60,941 nucleotides of DNA from a virus: IMG/VR virus record IMGVR_UViG_3300025012_000095, positions 1 through 60,941 of that record; one strand, written 5' to 3'. The notes beneath the pieces were generated by a model. It ran no database searches. It was given only the letters and a program-made list of their open reading frames with translations, and was not told the DNA's origin. The translations under genes were made by a program, and so were the position numbers. This document shows positions 4 to 15,446 of the stretch, in pieces; within the stretch, counting starts at the first letter, position 1, and every line of letters starts with the position of its first letter.

Positions 4-129
4 GTGTTGGCGTGCGGATGCGTAGCAGACTCGATTGGTGGGCTCTGGGCGCCGTGCGCCGAAGTGGCAGAGGTGCACGCTCTCGCGTGTGAGCTGGCGG
101 GCCAGGGGCTTCTGTTAGATTCCGAGAGA
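4..129. repeat. Left copy of 126-bp terminal direct repeat
   Basis: These 126 bases are identical to the last 126 bases of the window. Bases 1-3 do not match the corresponding bases before the right copy. The pattern is what a circular assembly, or a terminally redundant phage genome, gives. The unique genome length is then about 60,815 bp. Confidence 0.95.
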
Positions 130-285
130 CGCCGGCGGCGGGGGTTCACGGGGTGGAACCTGCCCACACTGCCAGAGGATCAACAACACTTTGACGATCT
201 GATAGACACGTTGCGGAACCACGTCGCCAATCAGAAACGGAAGGAAACGAACAGGACAAAGCAGCGCCCTATCCAGGGTTTGTAA
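4..285 (+). CDS. C-terminal part of a gene that wraps across the window ends
   Basis: The frame is open from the first bases and is the direct continuation of the frame that starts at 60750. Joined through the terminal repeat the product is 115 residues: 22 codons lie before the repeat and 93 from here. The GTG at 4 is therefore an internal codon, not the true start. The protein has several Cys residues (CGC, PCAE, LACE), an Arg-rich stretch and a basic C-terminus, and no family I recognise. It is the last gene of the early-type operon of small genes and is followed by the promoter at 295. Confidence 0.75.
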   Translation: MLACGCVADSIGGLWAPCAEVAEVHALACELAGQGLLLDSERRRRRGFTGWNLPTLPEDQQHFDDLIDTLRNHVANQKRKETNRTKQRPIQGL

Positions 286-294
286 CGTGCAACC

Positions 295-323
295 TTGACA
301 GCCGCCAAGTACTAGGTTATACT
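295..323 (+). promoter_or_regulatory. Sigma-70-type promoter for the left operon
   Basis: A TTGACA box (295-300) is followed by a 17-base spacer and TATACT (318-323). It lies 64 bases before the first gene of the operon. It is the closest match to consensus among the promoters seen in this genome. Confidence 0.8.
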
Positions 324-386
324 TCTGATCGACGCAGCAGAGGATCAACTCGAGGCACTCACAATGGAGGAACGAGAGACACTATC

Positions 387-1481
387 ATGGGAGACCTAAC
401 GTTCATACCAGCCAAGCGGGAGCAGGGCAAGGCGCGGATTGCCCTTGTTGGACCCTCGGGGTCGGGCAAGACTTGGACCGCTCTCTCGATTGCCAGTGGA
501 TTAGCGCCCACTGGCAGGATCGCGGTCATTGACACCGAGCACGGCAGCGCTTCGAAGTATGCCGGCTTGTGGGAATTCGACGTTCTGTGCCTAGACACCT
601 TCGCTCCCGAGCGGTACATCGCAGCCATCAAGGCCGCGGAGGCAGCAGGCTATGATGTCGTTGTGATTGACAGCCTATCGCACGAGTGGGTTGGACCTGG
701 CGGGGCGTTGGAGATGGTAGACGCCGAAACCATCCGCTCGAAGTCCACCAACAGCTATACGGCTTGGCGCAAGGTGACGCCGGAGCACAACCGGCTGTTC
801 GACACCATCATCCGCTGTAACTCGCATGTCGTAGCGACGTTGCGAACAAAGACGGAGTACGTGATAGAGAAGGATGACAGGGGGAAGGCCGTCCCCAGGA
901 AGATCGGGCTGGCGCCCATCACCAGGGAGGGCGCGGATTATGAGTTTGACGTGGTGGCAGAGATGGACCTGGATCACCTCTTGATCGTCACCAAAACTCG
1001 CTGTCCCGACCTCGACGGGCTGGCGGTTAGGAAGCCTGACAAATCGTTCGGGGAGCAGGTAAGAGCCTGGCTGTCCGATGCCCCTCCCCGTGCGCCAGTC
1101 GAAGCATTCACTCCCTCCATTGTGTCGCCCGAGCAGTCTAAAGCCCCGACCGGACAGGCTGCAATTACGGGGAATGTCGCCGCCGAGGTTGTAGGGGCCG
1201 TCAAGCGGGGCGTGAAGGGGGCCATAGAGGATGCTGGTGAAGACACCGACCAGCTACTTGCCGTACTGCGGAAGATCGCGGCAATGGGGGACACGGACAA
1301 CAGAGCGGCGGCCTTGAAGCTCTGGGAGGAACACGTCATTGCGGTTGGTGGGCCGGACACCATGTACCAAGCCATCGAGGAATTGGAGGGGTGGTTGCAG
1401 ACCACCGAGCGAGACGGGCTAATAGCATCGTTGCAAAAGTCGAAAGACCTGCTCGTCTACCGGGCTAGAGCAGTGCCATGA
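387..1481 (+). CDS. RecA-like AAA ATPase (Sak4-type recombinase candidate)
   Basis: A 364-residue P-loop ATPase. Walker A is GPSGSGKT near residues 22-29, and a Walker B-like strand (DVVVIDSLSHEW) lies near residues 90-101. The motif spacing and the N-terminal 'KARIALVGPSGSGKT' context match the phage AAA_24/Sak4 group of single-strand annealing or RecA-like recombination ATPases. The C-terminal 130 residues are low in recognisable motifs. The gene heads the operon behind the promoter at 295 and overlaps the next gene by ATGA. The general ATPase assignment is firm; the recombination role is inferred from the family. Confidence 0.8.
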   Translation: MGDLTFIPAKREQGKARIALVGPSGSGKTWTALSIASGLAPTGRIAVIDTEHGSASKYAGLWEFDVLCLDTFAPERYIAAIKAAEAAGYDVVVIDSLSHEWVGPGGALEMVDAETIRSKSTNSYTAWRKVTPEHNRLFDTIIRCNSHVVATLRTKTEYVIEKDDRGKAVPRKIGLAPITREGADYEFDVVAEMDLDHLLIVTKTRCPDLDGLAVRKPDKSFGEQVRAWLSDAPPRAPVEAFTPSIVSPEQSKAPTGQAAITGNVAAEVVGAVKRGVKGAIEDAGEDTDQLLAVLRKIAAMGDTDNRAAALKLWEEHVIAVGGPDTMYQAIEELEGWLQTTERDGLIASLQKSKDLLVYRARAVP

Positions 1482-1705
1482 CAAACAACCCGCCGGACAC
1501 AAGCGACCTGCTAACCATTGCTGGCGCGGCAACCCTCTTGGGGATTTCTCGCCAAGCGGTGCATCAAAAGATTCAGCGATGGCGACGCACTAAGGGGAGA
1601 AAGGGCCTGGCGTCGGCGCTGATAAACGACCGCATTGTCGTATCCCGAAAAGCCGTAGAGGCTCTGCGAGTGGCTAAGAAGATCCCCCCTCCGTGCGAGG
1701 AGTAA
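1478..1705 (+). CDS. Helix-turn-helix DNA-binding protein
   Basis: 75 residues. The segment from about residue 10 to 60 reads as a MerR/excisionase-like winged HTH: an AATLLGISRQAVHQKI recognition helix pair, then a basic wing and a VSRKAVEALR helix. It starts inside the stop of the upstream ATPase gene, so translation is probably coupled. Its target is unknown; a role in controlling the early operon or helping recombination is possible. Confidence 0.6.
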   Translation: MTNNPPDTSDLLTIAGAATLLGISRQAVHQKIQRWRRTKGRKGLASALINDRIVVSRKAVEALRVAKKIPPPCEE

Positions 1706-1965
1706 CGGCAGCCGAGAAGCTTCACCTTGCGCGTGTAGTGAGGATGGGCTGCTGTATCTGCGGGCGAGCGGCTGAGGTTCATCACATTCGAAGGGACGAA
1801 GGGAGAAATCACATGCGTGTGTTACCGCTTTGCCCTCCGCATCACAGGACGGGCGGGCTTGGGGTGGCTATACACGATGGACGAGAGACGTGGGAGAAGC
1901 GCTACGGCTCAGAGGAGTCGTTGCTAGGGTGGGTAGAGACCCATTTGGGCGGCAGTGATGGCTGA
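1693..1965 (+). CDS. Ref-like HNH nuclease
   Basis: 90 residues from a GTG start that overlaps the end of the HTH gene. The motifs CCICG, VHHIR, LCPPHHR and the tail 'WEKRYGSEESLL' follow the order seen in the phage Ref (RecA-dependent nuclease) family, a His-Me/HNH metal-finger fold. The neighbouring RecA-like ATPase supports a role in recombination or repair. The fold is likely; RecA dependence is only inferred. Confidence 0.65.
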   Translation: MRGVTAAEKLHLARVVRMGCCICGRAAEVHHIRRDEGRNHMRVLPLCPPHHRTGGLGVAIHDGRETWEKRYGSEESLLGWVETHLGGSDG

Positions 1966-2233
1966 ACCAAGTGTTGTGAAATGGAAGAAAGTGCAGGACT
2001 ACTTAGGGCGGCCTGGCATGGCAACCCGACGAGGGGAGTTGGAGGCTTGCATATGGGAGCCGGATCCCGAAGATGATCCACCCAAGAGGTACTTTTGGCA
2101 AGTAGGCCGCTACGCCAATGGCGGGGATTGGGAATTGCAATCCCAGGGGGAAGCCAAACGGCGACGCACCGCAGTAGAGCAGGCTTTGATGGCACTCAAG
2201 CACGTAGAGGAGCGCGCCAATGCCAAGGGGTAA
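1958..2233 (+). CDS. Hypothetical protein
   Basis: 91 residues from ATG 1958 (a GTG one codon earlier is also possible). Charged, soluble and rich in Lys/Arg/Trp, with no motif I recognise. It overlaps both neighbours, so it is translated within the left operon. Confidence 0.55.
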   Translation: MAEPSVVKWKKVQDYLGRPGMATRRGELEACIWEPDPEDDPPKRYFWQVGRYANGGDWELQSQGEAKRRRTAVEQALMALKHVEERANAKG

Positions 2234-2426
2234 TCGTTTTAGGGCAGTCCTGGTCAGCACTGGCAGTTTGCGCCATTACGTGAAGGTGTGGGGTGATGGT
2301 GTTCCTTGCTCCGCCACGCTCTGTAACAGAGATTGGCTCTGCGATGATGAGGAGCCATCACTTGCGGATGGGCTGTGCAAGTGCTGCGTGGCGAGACTGT
2401 CTGCGGAGGTGGACGGTGGTGACTGA
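2220..2426 (+). CDS. Small Cys-rich protein
   Basis: 68 residues. Several Cys residues, including a C-x2-C pair (CKCC), hint at a metal site. It overlaps the upstream gene by 14 bases and the downstream GTG start. No family recognised. Confidence 0.45.
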   Translation: MPRGNRFRAVLVSTGSLRHYVKVWGDGVPCSATLCNRDWLCDDEEPSLADGLCKCCVARLSAEVDGGD

Positions 2427-2631
2427 CGCGGAACACTACTACGTCCTACCAAGCCTGTACGATTGGGGCGATTTCTTGACGGAGATGGGCCCGTTGGCGG
2501 GTGTGCCGGGGACGTGCGGCGTGTTGCTATGCTACGCCACTGCCGATGCGGCGTTGGCGGCGATGGAAGAGGCGGGGTTGCCGCCGGGGACGCTGCCGAT
2601 AATGATACGACGAGCGTCGGGGGCCCCGTGA
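2419..2631 (+). CDS. Hypothetical protein
   Basis: 70 residues from GTG 2419 (GTG 2416 also possible). A purine-rich GCGGAGGTGG just upstream serves as the ribosome site and overlaps the end of the previous gene. The frame extends upstream to 2293, but the upstream part reads like a shadow. It contains a DAALAAMEEAGLPPGTLP helix-turn stretch similar to small phage proteins of unknown function. Confidence 0.5.
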   Translation: MTDAEHYYVLPSLYDWGDFLTEMGPLAGVPGTCGVLLCYATADAALAAMEEAGLPPGTLPIMIRRASGAP

Positions 2632-2951
2632 TAACTGACACGGAACACCTACACGACCTGGCCGCCGCTCGGGTCGCGCCGCATGGCGGGATTGCGCCTG
2701 GGGCCGACGCCTGGGGCTTCCTGGCGCGGTATTGGCACAGCATGGCGGACTTGCTGCAATTCCTCATGCTACGCGAGCGCGCCAGGGCCGCGAGACCGAG
2801 GGGCATTGCGCCTGGGGCCGACGCCTGGCACATGATCGCAGAGGAAAGGGCGGGCGCGTGTCGAAAGTTGGCCGCTGAATGCCAGGAGTGGCGGGATCGG
2901 TACAACGCGCTGAGGCAGGAGCGAGACGGCATAAAGGAGAGGGCGTTGTGA
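2628..2951 (+). CDS. Hypothetical protein with duplicated motif
   Basis: 107 residues from GTG 2628, which overlaps the stop of the previous gene (GTGA). The nine-residue motif GIAPGADAW occurs twice, each time followed by a charged helix, so the protein probably arose by internal duplication. Strongly helical C-terminus. Function unknown. Confidence 0.55.
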   Translation: MITDTEHLHDLAAARVAPHGGIAPGADAWGFLARYWHSMADLLQFLMLRERARAARPRGIAPGADAWHMIAEERAGACRKLAAECQEWRDRYNALRQERDGIKERAL

Positions 2952-3241
2952 CTAGGCCGCTGGAGTGTTGTGTGCAATGCGGTGCCTTAACGGACCGCGC
3001 GGGTGCTGGGGACGGTAGCCTGTATCTCAATGACGATGGGCCGTACTGCGAGGGTTGCTACTACGATACGCTGATCACGAAGTACGAGGAGGCATTAGTC
3101 AGGATAGGGCACTTGGGGCAGGTGCTAACCGAGGCGCTGGAAATGCTCGATCGGGCGGAGAAGCGGCACATAGCGGAGTTGGTTGAGTTGGCGAGACTGA
3201 GAGCGGGCCGCTCACTGGCTATGCTGGAGGGTGGACTGTGA
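2948..3241 (+). CDS. Zinc-ribbon protein with coiled-coil tail
   Basis: 97 residues from GTG 2948, overlapping the upstream stop. The N-terminus has a CCVQC ... YCEGC four-Cys arrangement typical of a zinc ribbon. The second half is an uninterrupted charged helix. No specific family recognised. It lies immediately before the DNA-modification gene at 3266. Confidence 0.55.
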   Translation: MTRPLECCVQCGALTDRAGAGDGSLYLNDDGPYCEGCYYDTLITKYEEALVRIGHLGQVLTEALEMLDRAEKRHIAELVELARLRAGRSLAMLEGGL

Positions 3242-3265
3242 CCGTCGTGACGGCTGACGTGATCG

Positions 3266-4189
3266 ATGGGCGGCGTCGAAATGGGGATGAGCCGGAGGAC
3301 AACCGTGATTTTTTACGTCGGCCTTCACATGCCAAGTCATGCCCGGCATTTCGACAATTGCATGATTAGTGTGAATCGCCTTTGCAAGCGCCGCAGCCCT
3401 TTCGTAGTGCGAAATTGGATTATGGACAGTGGCGCATTCACCACTGTCTATCGCGATGGTGGATACCGGACTCCTCCCGATGCTTATGTGGCTGAGGTTC
3501 GGCGGTGGTCTTCAAACGGCAATCTGGTTGCCGCCGTGTCACAGGACTGGATGTGTGAGCCCGTTGTGCTGGAGAAGACCGGACTGTCCATAGCGGACCA
3601 CCAACGGTTGACGATCGAACGCTATTGTCAGCTCGCACCCCTCATCGACATGACATACCTGATGCCGGTGCTCCAGGGTTATGCGCCGGCCGAGTATGCC
3701 CTACACGTGCGACAATACGGTGAGTTGCTGGCGCCGAGTGCGTGGGTTGGCGTTGGGTCTGTTTGTAAAAGGAACGCTTCGCCTGGGCGGGTGGAGGCGG
3801 TGTTACGGGAGATTTTGACGGTGCGGCCCGACCTGTGGTTGCATGGGTTTGGCCTGAAGACGACAGCTCTAGCAGACGGGCGAGTGCGGGCTATGCTGTC
3901 GTCAGCCGATAGCATGGCGTGGTCCTATGCAGCGCGTTGGGAGGGCCGAGACGCAAACGACTGGAGGGAGGCGGCCCGATTTGTGACGCGAATCGTGTCA
4001 AGGCCGCACCAACTACCATTGTGGCTATCGTCCCACTGTCTAGAGGTGTCGGCGGAGACAGGTGTCGGCGACAATCAGCCTCCGCTTTGTGCGGGGATGG
4101 GCGCGGGGATGAGGATGTGGACTCGCGGCCGAGCAGTCGGTCCCGCCGCGACGTCAACCGAGCAGCCGGCCCTGCCGGGCCTGGCGTAG
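3266..4189 (+). CDS. dpdA: DpdA-like 7-deazaguanine DNA transglycosylase
   Basis: 307 residues; ATG 3281 or 3287 are alternative starts. It is related to tRNA-guanine transglycosylase (TGT) but is a phage DpdA-type protein. Visible motifs in order: MDSGAFT (Asp54, matching the TGT DSGGFQ base-binding loop), QDWMCEP, PVLQG, WVGVGSVCKRN (matching the TGT glycine loop), LHGFGLK, and SADSMAWS (Asp215, in the position of the TGT catalytic nucleophile). The TGT C-terminal Cys3-His zinc site is not evident. Known DpdA proteins exchange guanine in DNA for preQ0 or a derivative, which blocks host restriction enzymes. The YhhQ transporter gene is about 1 kb downstream. The family is clear; the exact base made is unknown. 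Confidence 0.85.
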   Translation: MGGVEMGMSRRTTVIFYVGLHMPSHARHFDNCMISVNRLCKRRSPFVVRNWIMDSGAFTTVYRDGGYRTPPDAYVAEVRRWSSNGNLVAAVSQDWMCEPVVLEKTGLSIADHQRLTIERYCQLAPLIDMTYLMPVLQGYAPAEYALHVRQYGELLAPSAWVGVGSVCKRNASPGRVEAVLREILTVRPDLWLHGFGLKTTALADGRVRAMLSSADSMAWSYAARWEGRDANDWREAARFVTRIVSRPHQLPLWLSSHCLEVSAETGVGDNQPPLCAGMGAGMRMWTRGRAVGPAATSTEQPALPGLA

Positions 4190-4201
4190 TCAATCAATCG
4201 G
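4172..4201. repeat. 30-bp direct repeat, left copy
   Basis: Identical to 6301-6330. This copy spans the last codons and stop of the DpdA gene and the upstream part of the next ribosome site. The two copies bracket the lipoprotein/methyltransferase/YhhQ region. Confidence 0.9.
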
Positions 4202-4210
4202 GAGAATAAC

Positions 4211-4999
4211 ATGATCGACGCCATACTGGACCGCATGATCGACGCCATACTGGACCGATGGACGCTGGTTGGCGACAGATGGTACGCCTTCCGTTGTCCC
4301 GCCGGAAATGGGCCCCGGACTTGGCGGTGTCCGAGCGTCTGCCCGTGCTGTGAGGGCGAGTGCGGGTTTACGGAACACGTGGACGAATGGGGCGGCCCAC
4401 ACTATCCCTGTGGATATTGCGACAGCAGTGGCGTTGTGTCGCTGCGCGCGCGGATGTTGTGGTGGTCCTATGGGTCCCGCGTAGGTAAGTGGTTCTGGCG
4501 GCTCTTCGAACGCCTAGAAGAAAGGCGGCAGGTGAATGACATGACCAAGGACACGCTACGTTGGATCGTCGCGTTGGCCGCGCTTGTGGCGGCGCTGACG
4601 CTGGTTGGGTGCCGTGGCAATGCGACGGCTGGCCCCATCGGTTCCGCCTGGCCGACCGAGGACCTGACCGCCGCTGGCTGGCAGGCTACGGGCATGTGCG
4701 CGCCGGCGGTGGTTACGCCGGCCATGCTGGCGGTGTGGTTCGCCTCGGTTGACGGTACGATCCGTGTAGAGGTCGGCGCCAGTACGGTATCGTTCGGGCA
4801 TTACGTCGTTTCGGTGGATGTTGCCCAGCGATCCGTGTCGGTGGTAGGGCCGCCGGGTGCCGATGTGCTAGAGCGGGACATAGCGGCGTGTGTCGGCTCG
4901 GGGCCGATGCCGGACGACCGCGCCGGGCGCTGGATAGACGGCATGTACACGGATGAGGCTATCGAGCCGACTGCGCCAGCCGGCGAGCCACAAGCCTGA
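4211..4999 (+). CDS. Zinc-finger / lipoprotein-like fusion protein
   Basis: 262 residues in one open frame that looks like two joined genes. The first 16 residues are an exact 8-residue tandem repeat (24-bp duplication at 4211-4258). Residues 40-80 carry Cys pairs (CPCC, CGYC) of a zinc-ribbon type. From Met111 (ATG 4541) the sequence is a lipoprotein signal: MTKD, a hydrophobic stretch of about 18 residues, then a TLVGC lipobox, then a secreted-type domain with two further Cys. The ATG at 4541 may be the true start of a separate lipoprotein of 152 residues. A phage lipoprotein could act in superinfection exclusion; this is inference. Confidence 0.55.
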   Translation: MIDAILDRMIDAILDRWTLVGDRWYAFRCPAGNGPRTWRCPSVCPCCEGECGFTEHVDEWGGPHYPCGYCDSSGVVSLRARMLWWSYGSRVGKWFWRLFERLEERRQVNDMTKDTLRWIVALAALVAALTLVGCRGNATAGPIGSAWPTEDLTAAGWQATGMCAPAVVTPAMLAVWFASVDGTIRVEVGASTVSFGHYVVSVDVAQRSVSVVGPPGADVLERDIAACVGSGPMPDDRAGRWIDGMYTDEAIEPTAPAGEPQA

Positions 5000-5023
5000 C
5001 CGGGATTATGAGGGAGCCGTGAC

Positions 5024-5335
5024 GTGAACTTTAATAAGTGCCCCTTCCCGTGGTTTGGCGGAAAGAGTCAAGCCGCCCCGGTTGTGTGGGCTGCGTTAGG
5101 GGATTGCGTGCATTACATAGTCAACCGTGCGATAGACAAAGAGAGAGGTGAGAGTGAAATACTCCAAGTGGTTCCTGATCGTCGCCGCCTTCTTCATCAC
5201 AGCCTTATTGACCGCGAACATAATCGCCGTAAAGTTGATCGACGTCTTCGGGCTGATTATGCCGGCGGGGGTGATCATCTTCCCCGTCAGCTACATCTTC
5301 GGCGACGTGCTCACCGAGGTCTACGGTTACGCTAG
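5024..5335 (+). pseudogene. N-terminal remnant of a DNA adenine methyltransferase
   Basis: A GTG start with a GGGAG site. The first 30 codons include CPFPWFGGKSQAAPVVW and ALGDCVHYI, the motif X region and following strand of D12-class phage adenine methyltransferases. The expected next element, a motif I of the type EPFAG, is missing. The frame runs instead into the YhhQ gene region and stops at 5335. About 100 bases are homologous; the rest is out-of-frame transporter sequence. It cannot be an active methyltransferase as it stands. Confidence 0.7.
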
Positions 5336-5849
5336 AGCGCGCACGGTCATCTGGCTCGGCTTCCTGTGCAACCTGCTCGCCGTGATCGCCATCACCGTCG
5401 CCCAAATCCTGCCCGCAGCCGCCTTCTGGCAGGGCCAAGGTGCCTACGAGACGATTCTCGGCTATGCCCCCCGCCTGCTGTTGGCCTCCTTCACGGCGTA
5501 CGTCGTCGGCGAATTCGCCAACTCGTACGTCCTCGCCAAGATGAAGATCGCCACCCGCGGCCGCTGGCTGTGGACCCGGACCATTGGCTCCACACTCGTC
5601 GGCCAGGGCCTGGACTCTCTACTCTTCATCCTGATCGCCTTCGCCGGCACCATCCCCACGGCTGGTCTGCTGAGTGCCATCATCACGCAGTGGCTCGTCA
5701 AGTCCGCCTACGAAGCCTTGGCCACACCGATCACCTACGCCGTGACTAGCTTCCTCAAGCGCGAGGAGGGCATCGACGTATTTGACTATGACACGAGCTT
5801 CAACCCGATCTCGACGCCGCATCCTCGTGCCATTCGCCGGATCGGGTAG
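5154..5849 (+). CDS. yhhQ: Queuosine-precursor transporter (YhhQ/VUT family)
   Basis: 231 residues from GTG 5154, with GAGAGAGG a few bases upstream; GTG 5148 is possible. Six or so hydrophobic segments are visible. Family signatures include TANIIAVKLIDVFG, PVSYIFGDVLTEVYGY, a central FANSYVLAKMK and, near the C-terminus, KSAYEALATPITY. YhhQ proteins import 7-deazaguanine precursors (preQ0, preQ1). The last 12 or so codons run into former methyltransferase DNA, so the C-terminus is probably extended. No queuosine biosynthesis gene is present, so with DpdA it suggests a salvage route to modified phage DNA. Less GTG-rich and more C-ending codons than its neighbours suggest transfer. Confidence 0.9.
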   Translation: MKYSKWFLIVAAFFITALLTANIIAVKLIDVFGLIMPAGVIIFPVSYIFGDVLTEVYGYARARTVIWLGFLCNLLAVIAITVAQILPAAAFWQGQGAYETILGYAPRLLLASFTAYVVGEFANSYVLAKMKIATRGRWLWTRTIGSTLVGQGLDSLLFILIAFAGTIPTAGLLSAIITQWLVKSAYEALATPITYAVTSFLKREEGIDVFDYDTSFNPISTPHPRAIRRIG

Positions 5850-5970
5850 CGCGGTCTGCGGCGCGATGCTGGTGGGCTGGGAGGATGTACTGGCGATCGA
5901 ACGCGAGCTAGAGTACGCCGACATTGCGCTGGAGAGCCACAAACGTGAAGCCGCCTTGCGTGTGGTATGA
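5782..5970 (+). pseudogene. C-terminal remnant of a DNA methyltransferase
   Basis: In a different frame from YhhQ and overlapping its end, this segment encodes RRILVPFAGSGSAVCGAML, then a Gly/Ala helix and ERELEYADIALESHK. This is the AdoMet-binding FxGxG motif (motif I) and the following acidic strand end of N6-adenine/N4-cytosine methyltransferases, as found at the C-terminus of beta-class enzymes. The catalytic DPPY/SPPY motif is absent. With the fragment at 5024 it flanks YhhQ; the two may come from one enzyme or from two different ones. Confidence 0.65.
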
Positions 5971-6130
5971 GACCCTTGACGGTTGGTACGAGACCGAGTG
6001 CGGGCACGCGTTCATCGTCGACCACGGCACGCCGGCGGAGAATGGCATGGGGTTTTGCTGCTACTGCGGGGCAACGCTAACGGCGGTCCGGGCGCAGTCA
6101 CACAACGATGACGATCAAGAGGAGGTGTGA
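5945..6130 (+). CDS. Small zinc-ribbon protein
   Basis: 61 residues from GTG 5945, which overlaps the methyltransferase remnant. TECGHAF ... FCCYCGATL forms a C-x-H and C-x2-C type zinc site. The layout resembles short zinc-ribbon proteins common in phages, including Lar-like restriction-alleviation proteins, but the match is too general to name it. Confidence 0.55.
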   Translation: MKPPCVWYETLDGWYETECGHAFIVDHGTPAENGMGFCCYCGATLTAVRAQSHNDDDQEEV

Positions 6131-6134
6131 TGTG

Positions 6135-6338
6135 ATGAACCGTTCGTGGCGCGGCAGCAGAATCTATGAATGGCGTGGATGGGTAGTGCTGTTAGTTGGG
6201 AATTACAAAGTCTCGTTCAAGTGGCGCCCTGGCGGTGCGATTGGCCGATGGGGGCGCTGGAGCATTCTGCCGCGGGTGGGGCCGGAGGATGTGTGGCAAG
6301 CTGCCGGGCCTGGCGTAGTCAATCAATCGGAGGAATGA
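6135..6338 (+). CDS. Hypothetical protein
   Basis: 67 residues from ATG 6135 behind an AAGAGGAGGTG site. Basic and Trp/Arg-rich, with no recognised motif. Its last 12 codons are encoded by the right copy of the 30-bp repeat plus the next ribosome site, so the tail was probably created by a recombination junction. Confidence 0.45.
   Translation: MNRSWRGSRIYEWRGWVVLLVGNYKVSFKWRPGGAIGRWGRWSILPRVGPEDVWQAAGPGVVNQSEE
6301..6330. repeat. 30-bp direct repeat, right copy
   Basis: Identical to 4172-4201, where the same bases end the DpdA gene. Here they lie at the end of the gene at 6135 and before the ribosome site for the gene at 6340. The distance between copies is 2,129 bp. Confidence 0.9.
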
Positions 6339-6339
6339 C

Positions 6340-6609
6340 GTGATTTGCAGACTGGGGATACATCAGTGGGCGTGGTTCGGCCCGATCTATGGCGGGCAGT
6401 TTATGAACCGGGTTTGCAAGCGGTGTAGGGAGCACCAGGTCTACTCCTTGGCTCAGGGTGACTATCGCTCCGACTGGCATCGTGTTGGCGCCGAGGATTG
6501 GCTGACATATAACCCCGCGCCGCCGGTACTGTCGAAGGAAACGATGGACGTTATTGGTCGGTTGCGCGAAGCTCCTGTTGACACCGTGGCCGGTGGCGCC
6601 GTAACTTGA
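6340..6609 (+). CDS. Hypothetical protein with Cys pair
   Basis: 89 residues from GTG 6340 with an excellent AATCGGAGGAAT site. It begins MICRLGIHQW and has CKRCREHQ, a pattern of short phage zinc-binding proteins. It is the last gene of the left operon; its stop overlaps the -35 box of the next promoter. Confidence 0.55.
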   Translation: MICRLGIHQWAWFGPIYGGQFMNRVCKRCREHQVYSLAQGDYRSDWHRVGAEDWLTYNPAPPVLSKETMDVIGRLREAPVDTVAGGAVT

Positions 6610-6634
6610 CGGCGCGCCCCGGCTGTGGTAGACT
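6606..6634 (+). promoter_or_regulatory. Sigma-70-type promoter for the primase operon
   Basis: TTGACG (6606-6611), a 17-base spacer ending TGTGG, then TAGACT (6629-6634). The spacer end and -10 box are shared with the promoters at 45164 and 53533. Confidence 0.8.
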
Positions 6635-7085
6635 ACCCGCGTACCGCGAGAGCGGCGAAAGGACCGATCATGAGGCCGTCACGGGCCGAAACACGAGGTG
6701 CATACGCGTTACTCACCAGCCCTCCTGGGCGCGGTGCCGGTGCTGGAAGCCTACCCGTGGGCAACTGTGACCCGTCACCGACGCCGCGCCCAGGAGGGCT
6801 GGTTCTGTTAACAACTCACAGGCCCAGCGGACTTGCGGAAAAGCCGACACGGCATCCTGACAGCCGAGGTACGTAGTGGCTAACGGCGCTTTGTAGCGCC
6901 ACTGGTGTCGGGGAATTGAGAGGGTGTCAAGGCCCGCCGAGGTTGCAACACCTTGGGCGGGACGGATTGGTAACAGCCCAGTCGAACCTCAGGTGCGCCT
7001 GTGAGAAGAGCCCTACTCCTTTGCCGCCCCTCCGTAGTGGGGGTAGGGGGGCGAGCATTACTCTAAATTCCCCACCAAAAGGGGG
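6635..7085 (+). ncRNA. Structured gene-free leader, candidate non-coding RNA
   Basis: About 450 transcribed bases between the promoter and the primase gene hold no convincing gene. Perfect 19-base arms (6716-6734 and 6784-6802) enclose a 49-base loop. Further stems are GGCGCT/AGCGCC (6885-6900), a CCCGCC...GGGCGGG stem (about 6933-6961) and a CCCCTCC...GGGGGG stem (about 7023-7055). This could be a regulatory leader, a separate RNA, or a replication origin structure next to the primase. No known riboswitch was recognised. Confidence 0.4.
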
Positions 7086-7090
7086 TTCGT

Positions 7091-9130
7091 ATGGGTTTTC
7101 CGCCCACAGAGTCCGATCTATTCCGATCCGCTCTCTCATACATCGCGCATGGTTGGAGTGTCATCCCCATTCGCCCAAGCGACAAACGGCCGTTGGTGAA
7201 ATGGGAAGAGTACCAAACTCGCCTGCCGACAAAACTTGAGTGGGCCGAGTGGTCTAAGACGCCCAATCTCAACATCGCTCTTGTAACAGGCAAGGTAAGT
7301 GACATCACGGTTGTAGATGTGGACGGCGAGGAAGGAATGGAGTCTATCAAAGCCTGCGGACGCCCATTGCCAAAGACACTCCTTCAGAAAAGCCCGCACG
7401 GCTGGCACATGTTCTTCAGGTATTGCGAGAACCTCCGCAACAAGGCAGGGCTGCTTTCAGGCGTTGACGTGAGGGGGGAAGGTGGCTACGTACTCATAGC
7501 GCCTTCCCATCTGTCTGACGGCAGCTACACATGGCGACGCCAATGCACACCACAACCCTTCCCCGAATGGCTGATTCCCGCCTCGGAAGGTGGGCCACAA
7601 AGGCCAGCCCATGAAAAACCTCGTTGGGTGTCGTTTGCGCTTACCAATGGCGCAGAGGCGGGCCAGCGTAACGCGATGGCCACTCGGCTTGCTGGCTATC
7701 TCTTTGGCCGAGGACTGCCAGAAGATGTTGTTCGGGCAACGTTGGAGCCATATCGCCTGGCTTGCAAGCCCGAACTTTCCCCCACCGAACTAAACACCAC
7801 GATCCGAAGTGTCTCCCGCTACCGGAAGTTTGCATCAGCAGCCGGAGTAATGGATCCCCCGACAGTCCAGAAGACGGCGGCGGGTGAGCGCTATCTGTGG
7901 GATGATCTTGCGGTGGAGGTCAGAACAGTAAGCCGAAATAAGACAGCGCTCCTTGCGGAGCTAGGCGTCACTTTGGCACTTCCCGGCTTATCTGAGACCG
8001 TTCGAGCGCCAAGGGTGGTCAATCTGCTGAGCCAGAGAGACTGCGACAGCTTTGCCGAAAGCTTGCGTCGTGTGGTACCGGAGGTGCAATGGAGTAGCCG
8101 GATAGATGTTCTGTGCAGGCTGGTACTAGAGAGCTATCGGCGGGGGGATCCCGCTGTGCTACTCAAGGATTGCCGTAGGGCCAACGGTGTGCAGTATGCC
8201 TTGGAGCCGCTGCTACTGAGTGATAGCCCGACAGTCTGGTTCGCATCGGGCGGGGTGGGTAAATCACTATTGGCGTTAGCAGCTGCGAGCGCTTTGGCTG
8301 GTCATGATGTCTTTGCTGGAATGAGGGCGAAGCGGCCAATGAGAGTACTCTATCTGGATTGGGAATGGGAGGACTGGCAACACGCCGAACGCCTTCGCCT
8401 ACTCCTGGGAGACGATACAGACGTTGCCGACCTCCTCTACCGTAGGTGCTATGGCGCATTGCCGGACGAGATAGAGGCTATCCGGCAGATAGTGGCGGAT
8501 GAGGAGATCGGCTATGTCGTGATAGACAGCCTGGGGGCGGCGTGTGGGGGTGACTTGAATGATGCCGACACAGCCATCCGGTTCAACGGGTTGATCCGCT
8601 CCCTGAATGTTGGTAGCCTGTGGATTACCCACGTAACCAAGAATAACGAGGCGGACGTCGATCGACCCTTCGGCAGCATCTACTTCCACAACATGGCGAG
8701 GTTGGTCTGGCGGGTGAAGCGCCAGACAGAAGTCGATTCGGACGAGATAGCGGTTGGCTTCTATTGTACAAAATCAAACGCCACGCGTCTTCACAAGCCG
8801 GTCGGGCTAACCGTTAGGTTTGGCGAGCGCATCAGCATAACGCCTGCCGACCTGTTGTCGCACTCCACATTGGCGGCGGGGCTCCCGATTCGTGACCGCA
8901 TCCTCCGAGCACTGACACTGGAGCCAACGAGCGAGGTCGGCCTAGCCGAAGAACTGGGTACAACCAGGAGTACGATCCACAAGAAGCTGGAGGCACTACA
9001 AAAGGCGGGCACGATTGAGGCAGAAAACGGGCATTGGAAGCTTGCGCCCACCTCCGAAGTGCTGTTCGTGCAGTCTGATGCGCCAGCGTGGATGGAGTGT
9101 ATTCCGTTCGACTCGCTGTCAGGTGATTAG
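7091..9130 (+). CDS. Primase-polymerase / RepA-like helicase
   Basis: 679 residues starting behind AAAAGGGGG. Residues 1-190 are a bifunctional primase-polymerase (AEP) domain: GWSVIPI, KWEEYQ, the catalytic VVDVDG near residue 75, and SPHGWHMFF. A primase C-terminal (PriCT-like) segment follows near 200-260. A RecA-fold ATPase has Walker A GGVGKS (about 385-391), Walker B YVVIDSLG (about 473-480) and a THVTKN strand. The last 80 residues form a winged helix (TSEVGLAEELGTTRSTIHKKL). Such proteins prime and unwind phage DNA, so this is the core replication enzyme. No DNA polymerase gene is visible, so the host enzyme is presumably used. Confidence 0.88.
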   Translation: MGFPPTESDLFRSALSYIAHGWSVIPIRPSDKRPLVKWEEYQTRLPTKLEWAEWSKTPNLNIALVTGKVSDITVVDVDGEEGMESIKACGRPLPKTLLQKSPHGWHMFFRYCENLRNKAGLLSGVDVRGEGGYVLIAPSHLSDGSYTWRRQCTPQPFPEWLIPASEGGPQRPAHEKPRWVSFALTNGAEAGQRNAMATRLAGYLFGRGLPEDVVRATLEPYRLACKPELSPTELNTTIRSVSRYRKFASAAGVMDPPTVQKTAAGERYLWDDLAVEVRTVSRNKTALLAELGVTLALPGLSETVRAPRVVNLLSQRDCDSFAESLRRVVPEVQWSSRIDVLCRLVLESYRRGDPAVLLKDCRRANGVQYALEPLLLSDSPTVWFASGGVGKSLLALAAASALAGHDVFAGMRAKRPMRVLYLDWEWEDWQHAERLRLLLGDDTDVADLLYRRCYGALPDEIEAIRQIVADEEIGYVVIDSLGAACGGDLNDADTAIRFNGLIRSLNVGSLWITHVTKNNEADVDRPFGSIYFHNMARLVWRVKRQTEVDSDEIAVGFYCTKSNATRLHKPVGLTVRFGERISITPADLLSHSTLAAGLPIRDRILRALTLEPTSEVGLAEELGTTRSTIHKKLEALQKAGTIEAENGHWKLAPTSEVLFVQSDAPAWMECIPFDSLSGD

Positions 9131-9138
9131 GAGGGCGG

Positions 9139-9465
9139 GTGCCAAGAGAAAGCACGTTGGGAAGAGCGGTGGATGGGGCGTTGGTGGATTACCTCTGCTG
9201 TATAGACACAGAGGATGAGTTAGCAGATCGGCTAAGAGCAGCACTTGTGCTACATCAAGAAAGAGAGGCGACAATGGATGGCAAAGCTCAAGGGGATTGG
9301 CAACTCGGGCCGAGTGTTCTGGGGGCACTACAAGCCTTCAACGGCAGCAACCAGAGTGCCAGTGACGAAAGGCAGTTGGCAAACAGACTGGAGGCCACGT
9401 TGGAGGAGTTTCACAGGGAGCTTATGAGACGCATACATTCACACAGAGAACAGGACGGCATGTGA
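9139..9465 (+). CDS. Hypothetical helical protein
   Basis: 108 residues from GTG 9139 with GGAGGGCGG upstream. Two similar segments (EDELADRLRAAL and ERQLANRLEATL) suggest an internal duplication of a helical unit. It is the last gene before the terminator at 9482. Function unknown. Confidence 0.6.
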   Translation: MPRESTLGRAVDGALVDYLCCIDTEDELADRLRAALVLHQEREATMDGKAQGDWQLGPSVLGALQAFNGSNQSASDERQLANRLEATLEEFHRELMRRIHSHREQDGM

Positions 9466-9481
9466 TTCGTGGCTCCAAAAG

Positions 9482-9519
9482 CGCAAGGCCCGCCGGCTAA
9501 AGGGCTGGCGGGCCTTGCG
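9482..9519 (+). terminator. Terminator-like hairpin
   Basis: Perfect 13-base arms (9482-9494 and 9507-9519) with a 12-base loop, right after the primase operon and before the promoter at 9595. No T-tract follows, so termination strength is uncertain. Confidence 0.6.
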
Positions 9520-9594
9520 GTGGAGGTCCTCAGTAAGTATACCCGAAGCAACTCCTTTGACCAAATTACAAGAGGATGCTCTCAGTGAGAACAC

Positions 9595-9623
9595 TTGACG
9601 CCCTAAAGTTGTTGTGGTAGAAT
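9595..9623 (+). promoter_or_regulatory. Sigma-70-type promoter
   Basis: TTGACG (9595-9600), a 17-base spacer ending TTGTGG, and TAGAAT (9618-9623). It starts the operon at 9643. Confidence 0.8.
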
Positions 9624-9642
9624 GAGCAGACAAGGAGGGGAT

Positions 9643-10464
9643 ATGGATGATCTGGCGCGGGTAGAAACTGAATACATCCTGGTGGAGGGTAGGCGAGAGC
9701 GGTACGAGCTAGCTCCGACCGACACCCCGAGGGACTGGATGCTGCTACTGGTAGCAGCGACGACTGATCGGGATGTATTGAACTGGGATATTGCAGACCT
9801 GATAGTCGATGGCGAGCGCTTCATAGGCGTTCCCGGCATTGACACTGAGACGGGGGAGCCGTGTTGGGACGAGGATGCGATCTTTGACGATGCGAATCCT
9901 CGCTACGCTGGCTTCGACTACTTTGATACGTTGGCGAAACTAGAGGTTCACGTTCCGCGTTCGGAGCAGGCGAGGCTGAGTGCGGCGGGCAAGAAGTTCC
10001 TGCGGGATCCCGAAAGCGAGTGGTATAGGTATCGCCCTGAATGGCAGGGAGCGAAGATGGCGCATTTCATTGCCCTGCGTTACCAGGACTTGCCCTGGGA
10101 GTTAGTGAACCGCTGCCTTTCAGGCGGCTACTCGGTGGCAGCTTGCAATCGAGAAAGGAGCCAGTGGTACGAACAAACCTCGCCGGCCACCGTGGCGGAA
10201 GAAGAGGTCGAGGAGGAGAAGCCAGCGGACAAGGAAGAGGTCTTCGTAGGTTTGAATTACCATCAGACCAGGGGACGTCATGTTGACAGCATAGCCAGTT
10301 GGTTGGTACAGAATGTTGACAGCCTGACGAGGGTAACGTCGTTCTCGTGTGCCGAGGCGGTTGTATGGTGGATATATCACGCCGCCCCAAAGAGCGTGCT
10401 GAACGGCGCTCTGGTGAACGAGGAGTTCGTTCCGTGGCCCCCCGAGGAGGAGGATTATGAGTAA
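9643..10464 (+). CDS. Hypothetical protein
   Basis: 273 residues from ATG 9643 with an AAGGAGGGG site; an upstream in-frame ATG at 9622 overlaps the -10 box and is unlikely. Acidic protein, with a Glu-rich linker (EEEVEEEKPADKEE) near residue 190 separating an N-terminal domain from an 80-residue C-terminal domain. No family recognised. As the first gene of its operon it is likely well expressed. Confidence 0.6.
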   Translation: MDDLARVETEYILVEGRRERYELAPTDTPRDWMLLLVAATTDRDVLNWDIADLIVDGERFIGVPGIDTETGEPCWDEDAIFDDANPRYAGFDYFDTLAKLEVHVPRSEQARLSAAGKKFLRDPESEWYRYRPEWQGAKMAHFIALRYQDLPWELVNRCLSGGYSVAACNRERSQWYEQTSPATVAEEEVEEEKPADKEEVFVGLNYHQTRGRHVDSIASWLVQNVDSLTRVTSFSCAEAVVWWIYHAAPKSVLNGALVNEEFVPWPPEEEDYE

Positions 10465-10726
10465 CCCAAAAGACACCGAGGTGACGCCGTTGAAAGCCAA
10501 GATCACGATTGAGACCGAGGATGGTTGGACCTACCAGTGTGATGCCGTGGAGTGGGACCTAAACCTGGAAGCGGGTTTGAGGGAGACGACTTACGATCAC
10601 GCCCCTAATTTTGTACCGATGAGGCCCACACACGAATATAACCCGCCGGACGACCGTTGGGAGTTGACGGCAAGCGGGTTCGGGTTGCCCTGGCGGAGCC
10701 AAGAGAAAGCGACGGGAGCAGAGTGA
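10457..10726 (+). CDS. Hypothetical protein
   Basis: 89 residues, overlapping the previous gene by 8 bases. It contains the peptide EYNPPDDR, encoded by a 25-bp element found again at 11275-11299 in another gene. No recognised domain. Confidence 0.55.
   Translation: MSNPKDTEVTPLKAKITIETEDGWTYQCDAVEWDLNLEAGLRETTYDHAPNFVPMRPTHEYNPPDDRWELTASGFGLPWRSQEKATGAE
10633..10657. repeat. 25-bp coding repeat, copy 1
   Basis: Matches 11275-11299 with one mismatch. In both places it encodes Y-N-P-P-D-D-R, in two otherwise different small proteins. Confidence 0.8.
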
Positions 10727-10812
10727 CGGGGCTATTGATGTGGCTGTTCGACAAGTTGGTCGCGTCGTGGTGGTTCCCATTGCTCGAATGGCTGGGAAGG
10801 CCAAGGCAATGA
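10723..10812 (+). CDS. 29-residue membrane micro-protein
   Basis: GTG 10723 overlaps the preceding stop (GTGA), and its own stop overlaps ATG 10809 (ATGA). The product is hydrophobic and Trp-rich (LLMWLF, SWWFPLLEWL) and ends basic, as a single membrane-associated helix would. The tight coupling on both sides is the main evidence that it is translated. Confidence 0.5.
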   Translation: MTGLLMWLFDKLVASWWFPLLEWLGRPRQ

Positions 10813-11027
10813 AGAGAGAAGAGGGGATGGTGGAACACTGTGAAAACTGCTGGTGGTTTTCCGCTCCGCCCAGGCCGGCAGCTCTTGGGGATTGCCAACT
10901 GGCCGGGTCTTACCTCGGTGCCCCCGACAACCCCGACTCACCGATGGTTGCTCAGGACTACGAGGGGTATGCGGCAAGCCTTACAGTACGGCCAACATTC
11001 GGTTGCGTAGCGTGGAGGGCAAAATGA
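10809..11027 (+). CDS. Small Cys-motif protein
   Basis: 72 residues from ATG 10809; ATG 10830 also has a good AGAGGGG site. HCENCWWF ... GDCQL ... FGCVAWRAK gives four Cys in the order seen in small phage metal-binding proteins. Function unknown. Confidence 0.55.
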   Translation: MKREEGMVEHCENCWWFSAPPRPAALGDCQLAGSYLGAPDNPDSPMVAQDYEGYAASLTVRPTFGCVAWRAK

Positions 11028-11317
11028 GTGATTTCTCCTACGATAAGGAGCAGTGGGATTGGCCGCACGGCACAGATCCTGGGGTGCTGGCGCTGGACGT
11101 TTGCACGTTGGCCAAGTCCGGCGGCATCACGCTGCCACAGGCAGTTATGCTGCTGGAGTACCACTGTGGTTGGGAGCACGTGGACGCCGTGTGGGCAATG
11201 CGCGGGGAGATTGGAGGACTTGGGAAAGCGATTCGGGCTACGGTGCCGCTAATGGAGGAGGAGGAGGAGGAGTACGAGTATAACCCGCCGGACGACCGTG
11301 AGGAGGTGACGCAATGA
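11024..11317 (+). CDS. Hypothetical acidic protein
   Basis: 97 residues, ATG 11024 overlapping the previous stop. The middle (SGGITLPQAVMLLEYHCGWEH) looks like a helical bundle. The C-terminus has a run of Glu followed by EYNPPDDR, shared with the gene at 10457. Function unknown. Confidence 0.55.
   Translation: MSDFSYDKEQWDWPHGTDPGVLALDVCTLAKSGGITLPQAVMLLEYHCGWEHVDAVWAMRGEIGGLGKAIRATVPLMEEEEEEYEYNPPDDREEVTQ
11275..11299. repeat. 25-bp coding repeat, copy 2
   Basis: Second copy of the element at 10633-10657, differing at one base. It lies at the 3' end of the gene at 11024. Confidence 0.8.
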
Positions 11318-11484
11318 CGACGATGGTCGTATGCCCGAATGCCGGCCACCCTGGATGGTGTGATGGGTGCTTCCACAACCAGCCGCACGAGCGTAAGCTC
11401 GAATGCACGGAGATTGAAAAATTCCTCGCCCCATGTGATGCTCCGTGTGTGGCAGTGGCGGAGGAGGAGGTGGAGAATGAGTGA
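11314..11484 (+). CDS. Small Cys/His-rich protein
   Basis: 56 residues from ATG 11314 with GGAGGTGACG upstream. CPNAGHPGWCDGCFHNQPH supplies a clear Cys/His cluster, and CDAPC a second, so it probably binds zinc. The gene overlaps the next by 8 bases (ATGAGTGA). Function unknown. Confidence 0.5.
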   Translation: MTTMVVCPNAGHPGWCDGCFHNQPHERKLECTEIEKFLAPCDAPCVAVAEEEVENE

Positions 11485-11803
11485 CTGGAGGCGGTGGTCC
11501 GTCGTTCACGGCCTAGCCAGTTGGGCGTATCGGCTGGGCGTTATCGCGGGGTATGGGGTGCGTGGGACGGTGACCGGTTGGCGGTTGGATAGCGTGCGGT
11601 GGCGAGGCCGCCGCGTGTACCTTCTGGGCTGGCCAACAATGAAGTGGGAGTGCCTGCTCCTGCGGCACCATTGGCCGTACTGGCCGGAGGACCGCCCCGT
11701 ATTCATGGGGCTGTGCGGCCGGTGCCTGCCGTGGCCGTGCTGTGGGTCGATTGAGCATGACCATGTGTCGGGTTGCTCGGCAGAAAGTGAGCACGAGGAA
11801 TAA
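11477..11803 (+). CDS. Hypothetical protein with Cys-rich C-terminus
   Basis: 108 residues. Basic and Trp/Arg-rich over the first 75 residues, then CGRCLPWPCC and further Cys/His, which could bind metal. Coupled to the upstream gene. No family recognised. Confidence 0.5.
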   Translation: MSDWRRWSVVHGLASWAYRLGVIAGYGVRGTVTGWRLDSVRWRGRRVYLLGWPTMKWECLLLRHHWPYWPEDRPVFMGLCGRCLPWPCCGSIEHDHVSGCSAESEHEE

Positions 11804-11805
11804 GG

Positions 11806-12039
11806 ATGACTAGGACGGTCGTTCTTTCCAGTGTGGTCATGGAAGGGCTGGCGTTCAACAACGCCGGTGGCTTATATGAATCGCGGGCGGGTTGGGCTAT
11901 AAGGTGGCGGCGAGGAGAACTTTCGGAAGTCTACTGTCCGGGCTGTCGTAGGTGGCGACAGTTGGCCGAGTCGTTTTCCATCGAGGTTCCGTTGTGTGAC
12001 GGATGCTTGGGGACTTTCCTGGAGCTGTTCGATGAATGA
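11806..12039 (+). CDS. Small zinc-ribbon protein
   Basis: 77 residues from ATG 11806 after GGAATAAGG. YCPGCRRW ... LCDGCLG is a classical two-knuckle zinc ribbon. It overlaps the start of the next gene by 8 bases. Confidence 0.55.
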   Translation: MTRTVVLSSVVMEGLAFNNAGGLYESRAGWAIRWRRGELSEVYCPGCRRWRQLAESFSIEVPLCDGCLGTFLELFDE

Positions 12040-12502
12040 GCTTGTAGCGGTGGTGGAGGAGACTGGCGAGGTCGTGCCGGTTCGCGAATCCCTGTCGATG
12101 GGGCGCCTGCTGGCGCACGCTGATGAGACCGATCGCCTGACGGTCTTGCGGTTGGAGATCGAGGAGCGCATCCGGTTCCTGTGCATCGAGGACATGCCGC
12201 TTGAGAAGTTCAGGTGCGAGGAACGCGATCTCGTGCGGCGCCTTGCGACCGACAAGGAGGCGCTGGCTCAGGCGTTCGCCCCGGAGGTGCGGAAGTCGCT
12301 CGGGGGCGCGATCACGATCGACCTGGGGCGGATTCGGTTCACCTGGCCGAAGCCGACGGAGCGGTGGGTGCAGCGGATCAAGCCGGCCCTGATCTTCAAG
12401 CGGAGGCCGGATCTGGCGGAGGAGCTCGGGATCGAACTCGTGATGGACGAGCCACGGGCGCCGATTGTAACGGTTCGTCCGCCGCGGGAGCTCACAAGTT
12501 GA
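12032..12502 (+). CDS. Hypothetical protein, possible Gam-like
   Basis: 156 residues from ATG 12032. A long charged helical region is followed by a strand-rich segment (GAITIDLGRIRFTWPKP) and RWVQRIKP. The helix-then-strand order is reminiscent of Gam-type host-nuclease inhibitors, but no diagnostic residue supports that, so it is left unnamed. Confidence 0.5.
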   Translation: MNELVAVVEETGEVVPVRESLSMGRLLAHADETDRLTVLRLEIEERIRFLCIEDMPLEKFRCEERDLVRRLATDKEALAQAFAPEVRKSLGGAITIDLGRIRFTWPKPTERWVQRIKPALIFKRRPDLAEELGIELVMDEPRAPIVTVRPPRELTS

Positions 12503-12525
12503 CGCATTACTAGGAGGAGGGGCAA

Positions 12526-12930
12526 GTGGGGACTAACTACTACTGGGAGACTCCCGCGTCGGAGAAGTGTTCTCTGTGCGGCAGAAGCGACGCGGGGGAA
12601 TACCTCCACATTGGCAAGTCTAGTGGCGGGTGGTGCTTCCTCCTTCACGTCTACCCCGACGAGGGGATAAACGACCTGGAGGATTGGGCTTACAAATGGC
12701 AGGGCTGCGGCTACATCCGCGACGAATATGGCCGCACAATGTCTCCCCCCGAGATGCGCGGAGTGATAACAGATCGTCGTCACCTCGGCCCTCCCTGGAG
12801 CGAGGGGACTTTGGCGCTGAACCATGCAGTGCAAGGCCCGAACGGGTTGGCGCGATGTGAGATTGACGGGGGGCATTGCATCGGCCACGGGGAGGGGGCC
12901 TGGGATTTTATCGTGGGGGAATTCTCGTGA
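12526..12930 (+). CDS. Conserved phage protein of the MGTNYY type
   Basis: 134 residues from GTG 12526 with AGGAGGAGGGGC upstream. It begins MGTNYYWE, then CSLCGR, LHIGKSSGGWCF and LHVYPDEGI, the arrangement of a protein family common in phages and actinobacteria with no known role. One C-x2-C pair and later Cys/His may bind zinc. Confidence 0.6.
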   Translation: MGTNYYWETPASEKCSLCGRSDAGEYLHIGKSSGGWCFLLHVYPDEGINDLEDWAYKWQGCGYIRDEYGRTMSPPEMRGVITDRRHLGPPWSEGTLALNHAVQGPNGLARCEIDGGHCIGHGEGAWDFIVGEFS

Positions 12931-13178
12931 AGAGGCACAGGGAGGAGATACTCGAAGCCATCGAGCGGTATTATGCAGAGGTGGGGATTGGCCCTAGTAT
13001 GCGGTGCATCATGACAATGACGGGGATCTCCTCGACCTCAATTGTGAGTTACAATCTCCGCTTGTTGGAGAAGGACGGGGACGTGCGAATCATCATGGAT
13101 GGCTCCGGGCGCCGCATGGTTGCGGGCGGTGTGGTGCCGTCTCAGAAACGCCGCATAGAGATAGCAATGTATGGCTGA
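12927..13178 (+). CDS. LexA-type winged-helix DNA-binding protein
   Basis: 83 residues from GTG 12927, overlapping the previous stop. EEILEAIERYYAEVGIGPSM, then MTMTGISSTSIVSYNLRLL and a basic wing match the LexA N-terminal DNA-binding domain. The protease half of LexA is missing, so it cannot self-cleave. It may act as a stand-alone repressor, for example of early promoters. Confidence 0.65.
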   Translation: MKRHREEILEAIERYYAEVGIGPSMRCIMTMTGISSTSIVSYNLRLLEKDGDVRIIMDGSGRRMVAGGVVPSQKRRIEIAMYG

Positions 13179-13515
13179 GTCTGAACTAGAGCGCACTTTC
13201 GATTTCTACTGGACGGCGCTGGGGGGTGGGGCTCTGGACATGCTGGTGAAGTTGTTTCCCCCTCGGAAATGGGAGTATGACCGTGTGGATCGACAGGCAA
13301 AGGTTATAGTCGAATGTGAAGGACAGGGGGGGAGGCATCAAACGTTCATGGGATTCGAGAACGATGCCGAAAAGTACAACAAGGCCGTCGCGGAAGGCTA
13401 CGCGCTTTTTCGGGTCACTAGCAAGATGTTGCGAGACGACCCCGCAGGGGTTTTGACGCCCATTATGGAAACCATCGAGAGGAACAGACGTGAGCGAGAC
13501 GATAACGCTGGCTGA
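13171..13515 (+). CDS. Restriction-fold nuclease (DUF559-like)
   Basis: 114 residues. An early Glu, then KWEYDRVD (Asp) and VIVECEGQGGRH (E-x-E), then FENDAEKYNKA and ALFRVTSKML follow the D...ExK-like order of PD-(D/E)XK nucleases of the DUF559/Vsr-like type frequent in phages. It could process replication or recombination intermediates. It overlaps both neighbours. Confidence 0.6.
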   Translation: MAESELERTFDFYWTALGGGALDMLVKLFPPRKWEYDRVDRQAKVIVECEGQGGRHQTFMGFENDAEKYNKAVAEGYALFRVTSKMLRDDPAGVLTPIMETIERNRRERDDNAG

Positions 13516-14444: not shown

Positions 14445-14585
14445 CATCGGGTGGTGACGTTCAGGCCGAGCGCTGCGCTCAAGCGGGCACTACACAAGTG
14501 AGGCGGTGCAAGTAAGCCGGTATTTGTCCCTGGTTTTGTCAAGCACACGGCGTCCGAACGGATGCTTTGTCAAGTGAGGTGTGAC

Positions 14586-15424: not shown

Positions 15425-15446
15425 AAACCATCCGGGAGGTAGGCAA

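Follow-up and report, generated by a model that had tools for sequence, protein, structure and literature searches.

A complete phage genome with a predicted DNA 7-deazaguanine insertase, a queuosine-precursor transporter gene that looks recently captured, and no detected preQ0 synthesis genes

Introduction

Hundreds of phages carry DpdA without the means of making its substrate, a puzzle in the field. For these DpdA-only phages (the "third group"), host supply or uptake of an exogenous precursor was proposed by Hutinet 2019, with the remark that some phages encode YhhQ (PMC6884629); mass spectrometry of DpdA-only phages gave no modification for Mycobacterium phage Orion and a trace for Salmonella phage 7-11, the former result being explained by a phage and a host that both lack the preQ0 pathway (PMC6884629). 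This lack leaves a gap that a transporter could fill. The stretch of viral DNA analysed here and called the window (IMG/VR record IMGVR_UViG_3300025012_000095, 60,941 nucleotides) contains dpdA and yhhQ. Being complete and carrying a transporter, such a genome puts the uptake answer directly to the test.

The combination of DpdA and a transporter without synthesis is of an already known kind, anticipated by Hutinet 2019 (PMC6884629) and shown by Fusobacterium phage phiFN37; the window is an unusually clean, complete form of it. Added here are the apparent capture of yhhQ into a methylase locus, where it lies between two methyltransferase remnants, and a DpdA tail resembling a clamp motif, both of which were overlooked in the initial annotation.

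Genome and preQ0 synthesis genes

The window is a complete circular phage genome with a 126-bp overlap of its ends (exact repeat; bases 4-129 = 60816-60941). A second contig, IMGVR_UViG_3300025015_000077, reads through the end junction; it is 100% identical to the window over 4-15846 and 99.8% identical across the final 2.6 kb. Genes for portal, head protease, major head, tape measure and endolysin were present, and a tailed phage is the source genome in the explanation proposed below. A long array of 15-bp tandem repeats at 58002-59046 encodes pentapeptide-type repeats; 56-bp direct repeats were found at 51149 and 59131.

Profiles of QueC, PTPS/QueD and FolE gave no match anywhere in the window record; the same profiles found these genes in Streptococcus virus MS1, HCTV-16 and PSTCR7 (controls). 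QueE and other Que proteins gave tblastn matches at noise level only in the window record. Since the genome is complete, FolE, QueD and QueC are truly missing, and the phage fits the DpdA-only group, the part of QueE in this assignment being by tblastn only. The earlier statement that FolE, QueD, QueE and QueC are missing thus held by profile for QueC, QueD and FolE, and by tblastn alone for QueE.

A strong QueC match was obtained in one of 50 viral records carrying this DpdA family (2 of the 50 being the window phage): in L009 (IMGVR_UViG_3300045241_000217), QueC and QueD lie immediately upstream of a same-family DpdA. QueC adjacency as a rule in the family was rejected on this count.

DpdA

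3305..4189, plus strand: dpdA, predicted TGT-fold DNA 7-deazaguanine insertase, 294 aa (PF23859, phrog_1279, AlphaFold model)
3294..3299, plus strand: Shine-Dalgarno GGAGGA of dpdA (sequence; GGAGG at 3294-3298 precedes GTG 3305)
3425..3442, plus strand: DSGAFT motif with the invariant Asp41, the motif-based counterpart of TGT Asp102
3542..3562, plus strand: QDWMCEP motif with the invariant Asp81, the motif-based counterpart of TGT Asp156 (base recognition)
3902..3925, plus strand: SADSMAWS motif with the invariant Asp202, the motif-based counterpart of TGT Asp280 (nucleophile)

The DpdA/TGT-like frame first reported for ORF 3266-4189 was borne out, the motifs quoted for it being present, and the profile search identified the protein as DpdA: PF23859, E = 1.5e-42, 146 bits (curated cut-off 27); phrog_1279, E = 2e-61. 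The true start is likely GTG 3305 and not the ATG 3266 annotated earlier, since homologues begin near that residue.

An AlphaFold model was built from 66 sequences (pLDDT 85), and its comparison with solved structures gave a TGT fold; best match: DpdA 7ui4, the crystal structure of a DNA preQ0 insertase (Z 19.7 over 222 residues); next matches: tRNA transglycosylases (Z 17-19), including archaeosine TGT 1iq8 (Z 18.8). The relation came from the fold comparison; the sequence profile of DpdA gave no match against the PDB. In the alignment Asp41, Asp81 and Asp202 were invariant across the 66 sequences; their motifs, which were mapped by motif order and not by residue-level superposition, we take to be the sites of the TGT general base, the base-recognition aspartate and the nucleophile. 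The zinc-site cysteines of tRNA TGT (Cys-x-Cys-x2-Cys ... His) were absent from the window DpdA. At least 505 viral relatives were found in IMG/VR, and this type of DpdA is therefore common. By family, fold and motifs, the protein probably inserts a 7-deazaguanine base into DNA.

In Microcystis phage Mwe-JY07 (L104:5998-6768) DpdA leaves the frame of its homologues after about residue 211; either the record contains a frameshift or the gene is broken.

C-terminal peptide of DpdA

4010..4027, plus strand: QLPLWL, sliding-clamp-binding-like peptide, DpdA residues 236-241, in the tail after the catalytic domain; tail peptide sequence: VSRPHQLPLWLSS

In the DpdA alignment a variable linker is followed by a C-terminal peptide with Gln and hydrophobic residues at fixed spacing (QLSLCL, QHMLDL, QGELF, QKPLF, QLPLF, QLTMDF). 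The spacing is that of the beta-clamp-binding motif Q-L-x-L-F, which is usually C-terminal (PMC4549789). The window copy deviates from it, with Trp in place of the consensus Phe and a position not at the very end: 53 residues follow, and most homologues end soon after the motif. With the motif defined as Q-x-x-[LMI][FLWYM] or Q-x-x-[LMIF]-x-[LFWM], it was present in the last 20 residues of 53 of 82 distinct DpdA sequences, compared with 24 of the 775 other ORFs in these loci; the window QLPLWL, being farther from the C-terminus, is outside the 53. After clustering at 70% identity, the whole-tail count was 20 of 34 (500 shuffles of the tails: mean 2.7, maximum 8), a statistic that rests on related sequences, so that its p-value is not independent. 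The tail Gln was conserved in 45 of 67 tails (entropy 1.9 bits; immediate neighbours 3.3-3.5).

The distant 9g/MS1-type DpdA subfamily was read in eight sequences (MS1, JenP1, Seurat, Iggy, ALK, RHEph06, MMDA13 and Yong-L2-223), and all eight have LF at the end or at most 2 residues from it. In six of these phages (MS1, Seurat, Iggy, RHEph06, MMDA13, Yong-L2-223) an annotated sliding clamp adjoins dpdA or lies 1-2 genes away; in JenP1 and ALK the corresponding genes are unannotated, and a weak clamp profile match was obtained in ALK alone. The TGT-like protein of phiFN37 has QIFLF near its end. An archaeal PCNA motif considered in HCTV-16 was rejected, the gene examined being DUF6610 and not a recognised DpdA.

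The DpdA tail peptide thus looks like a sliding-clamp-binding motif. It could instead be a structural element or bind some other protein, since the case for a clamp motif is one of sequence conservation, with a weak consensus, and roughly one DpdA tail in three lacks the motif as defined. Such a role is rather unlikely: the conserved positions are those of the published, usually C-terminal Q-L-x-L-F (PMC4549789), QLPLWL sits where the confidence of the AlphaFold model falls off past the catalytic domain, and the distant DpdA proteins end in LF near clamp genes.

Clamp-binding transposases likewise carry a short C-terminal Q-L-x-L-F-like peptide; they are proteins unrelated to DpdA, and their binding was shown biochemically (PMC4549789). 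A precedent for a clamp-bound modifier of phage DNA is T4 alpha-glucosyltransferase, which binds the sliding clamp gp45 (pull-down), its share of modification depending mainly on factors other than clamp binding (PMC13216743). Its enzyme family and chemistry are unrelated to those of the window DpdA, for which clamp binding is predicted only. A word search of a literature library found no paper linking DpdA or 7-deazaguanine insertion to a sliding clamp. If clamp-binding, the tail motif would account for the way in which a base-exchange enzyme locates phage DNA and keeps pace with replication.

Transporter gene and its locus

5154..5849, plus strand: yhhQ, queuosine-precursor transporter (QPTR/COG1738) by PF02592 and TIGR00697, up to 75% identity to bacterial proteins
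5141..5149, plus strand: likely Shine-Dalgarno of yhhQ, GAGAGAGGT (sequence)
5024..5119, plus strand: 5' remnant of an alpha-class (D12-like) DNA adenine methylase, 32 aa, NFNKCPFPWFGGKSQAAPVVWAALGDCVHYI; 61% identity over 26 aa to prophiGD11-3 gp26
5812..5970, plus strand: 3' remnant of a beta-class (N6_N4-type) DNA methylase, RRRILVPFAGSGSAVCGAMLVGWEDVLAIERELEYADIALE; 61% identity over 36 aa to the C-terminus of the Caulobacter phage DMCA methylase
4211..4999, plus strand: ORF between dpdA and yhhQ, 262 aa, matching no family; the N-terminal half is rich in Cys and the C-terminal half has a lipoprotein-like stretch
4172..4215, plus strand: 44-bp direct repeat, copy 1, spanning the dpdA end, a ribosome-binding site and the next start; 91% identical to copy 2
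6301..6344, plus strand: 44-bp direct repeat, copy 2

The complete YhhQ described about 1 kb from dpdA was found as annotated (ORF 5148-5849, gap about 1 kb), and its family was confirmed by profile search: PF02592, E = 1e-52, full length (positions 1-152 of 152); equivalog TIGR00697 (queuosine precursor transporter), 128 bits (cut-off 51). With the E. coli-type model PRK11212 the score stayed below cut-off. Judged from the sequence, the start is likely GTG 5154. A preQ1 riboswitch upstream of yhhQ gave no Rfam match.

The best matches of YhhQ were 70-75% identical proteins of Chloroflexota, Desulfobacterota and Rubrobacter. In the tree it nests among bacterial sequences, apart from other phage transporters; naming of a donor or host was dropped, as the nesting among Chloroflexota and deltaproteobacterial sequences is without firm support. 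Close relatives in IMG/VR: none beyond the same phage.

Bacterial homology of YhhQ ends near nucleotide 5810, and the last codons of the ORF use methylase DNA in another reading frame. The alpha-class remnant stops just short of the first catalytic motif. As the two remnants derive from different enzymes, yhhQ either replaced the stretch between and within two methylase genes or entered a region already damaged. GC skew is clearly negative only across about 5100-6000 (the insert), the strand being otherwise mostly positive, and this switch fits a recent capture. Taken with the bacterial affinity of the protein, yhhQ looks like a recent capture from a bacterium. An empty-site relative (methylase genes without yhhQ) was not found, a scan with the 3' remnant matching the same phage alone. 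Transposon-like ends were rejected: the only sequence shared, the 6-bp TCAACC at 5121 and 5800, is too short.

The same data bear on the reading of yhhQ as a passenger, that is, bacterial DNA brought between two methylase genes by illegitimate recombination and not (yet) useful. The confined negative skew, the abrupt junction with its out-of-frame methylase residues and the want of a close phage relative having the gene all speak for it. It is unlikely nevertheless: the gene keeps an unbroken reading frame for about 219 aa, its identity to bacterial transporters reaches 75%, and it has a plausible ribosome-binding site; yhhQ is identical in the second contig, which differs from the window at 6 sites, all elsewhere; and the pairing of transporter and DpdA recurs independently (see below).

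The copies of the 44-bp direct repeat flank the segment containing yhhQ and may be an aid to module exchange. The ORF at 4211-4999, in which the lipoprotein-like stretch LVGCRGN stands mid-protein, may be two genes read as one.

Substrate of the transporter

Neighbours of 80 bacterial YhhQ homologues were counted within the fetched flank (up to 6 kb): QueC, 5 of 80; QueF, 10 of 80; TGT-like gene, 3 of 80; yhhQ, QueC and QueF stand together in one Chloroflexota relative. These neighbours indicate preQ0 or preQ1 as substrate, and the window YhhQ would accordingly be a predicted transporter of either, in a family (COG1738) whose members vary in substrate (PMC11130926, PMC5372724).

The transporter might instead serve the host tRNA, raising queuosine in tRNA during infection without connection to DpdA or phage DNA. 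QPTR normally supplies tRNA queuosine (PMC5372724, PMC11130926), the QueF and QueC neighbours of the bacterial relatives belong to the tRNA queuosine pathway, and such a role was proposed by Hutinet 2019 for phages with pathway genes and without DpdA (PMC6884629). It is improbable here: the phage genome has no tRNA gene, DpdA is encoded 1 kb away, and transporter-like genes adjoin DpdA in other viral records.

Known systems and proposed mechanism

Like the window, the DpdA-only phages of Hutinet have DpdA without FolE, QueD, QueE or QueC; it differs from them as a complete genome with a full-length bacterial transporter that appears recently captured, and Orion and 7-11 had no or trace modification. 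Fusobacterium phage phiFN37 (OR492271) has, like the window, a TGT-like gene and a full transporter with one small gene between them, and no QueC, QueD or FolE above cut-off; it differs in that its TGT-like protein has no PF23859 match and its transporter is distant (31% identity to that of the window). Queuovirinae, Streptococcus virus MS1, HCTV-16 and Providencia phage PSTCR7 likewise have a YhhQ-type transporter in a preQ0 pathway setting, but encode preQ0 synthesis as well; the DpdA of MS1 and Queuovirinae belongs to a distant subfamily, and in the others it was not found by PF23859. In three other DpdA-bearing viral records (L013, L143, L174) a short Vut_1-type transporter-like gene lies directly beside DpdA. 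A total of 72 phage records, many from phages with preQ0 synthesis, contain short transporters of the same superfamily. From these records and phiFN37 it follows that the combination of transporter and DpdA arose more than once.

Import rather than synthesis is the best reading of the window, because both families were assigned correctly and the complete genome is without synthesis genes; to this extent the uptake proposed in the initial annotation stood, and its arrangement is not new. In the mechanism proposed, the captured YhhQ/QPTR would raise preQ0 or preQ1 in the infected cell, the phage itself not making the 7-deazaguanine base that would replace part of its guanine; DpdA, with its catalytic aspartates in place, would swap DNA guanine for the imported base; QLPLWL would dock DpdA on the host beta sliding clamp, so that the exchange would follow the replication fork; and the 7-deazaguanine product would shield the phage DNA from restriction. 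As one explanation, imported precursor, exchange by DpdA, clamp docking and shielding from restriction are given about an even chance. Against it stand the recent look of yhhQ, which may not yet serve the phage, and the DpdA-only phages Orion and 7-11 with no or a trace of modified base (PMC6884629). A DpdA without activity, or one working on a different nucleic acid (e.g., tRNA), with no DNA modification, is distinctly improbable: Orion, with DpdA and no precursor, is unmodified (PMC6884629), but the catalytic motifs do not vary across 66 diverse sequences, viral relatives number at least 505, the best-matching solved structure is that of a DNA preQ0 insertase, the window protein has no Cys cluster of the tRNA TGT type, and the clamp-like tail points to DNA.

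A wider form of the proposed mechanism is possible but doubtful: the phage DpdA family would be tethered to the clamp by its C-terminal peptide and exchange thereby coupled to replication, and in this phage the precursor would be wholly imported, the transporter sitting in a broken methyltransferase locus, so that methylation-based modification would have been traded for a salvage-based one.

Among the bacterial relatives, yhhQ of a Chloroflexi MAG (JAGVRI010000023.1; L020:5962-10694) stands beside a divergent TGT-like gene (DSGGY motif), NurA and a HerA-type helicase; at L032:9752-12429 and L051:10039-11603 bacterial yhhQ stands beside a TGT-like gene and HerA. Such loci may represent a bacterial island for 7-deazaguanine modification of DNA, with defence-type partners.
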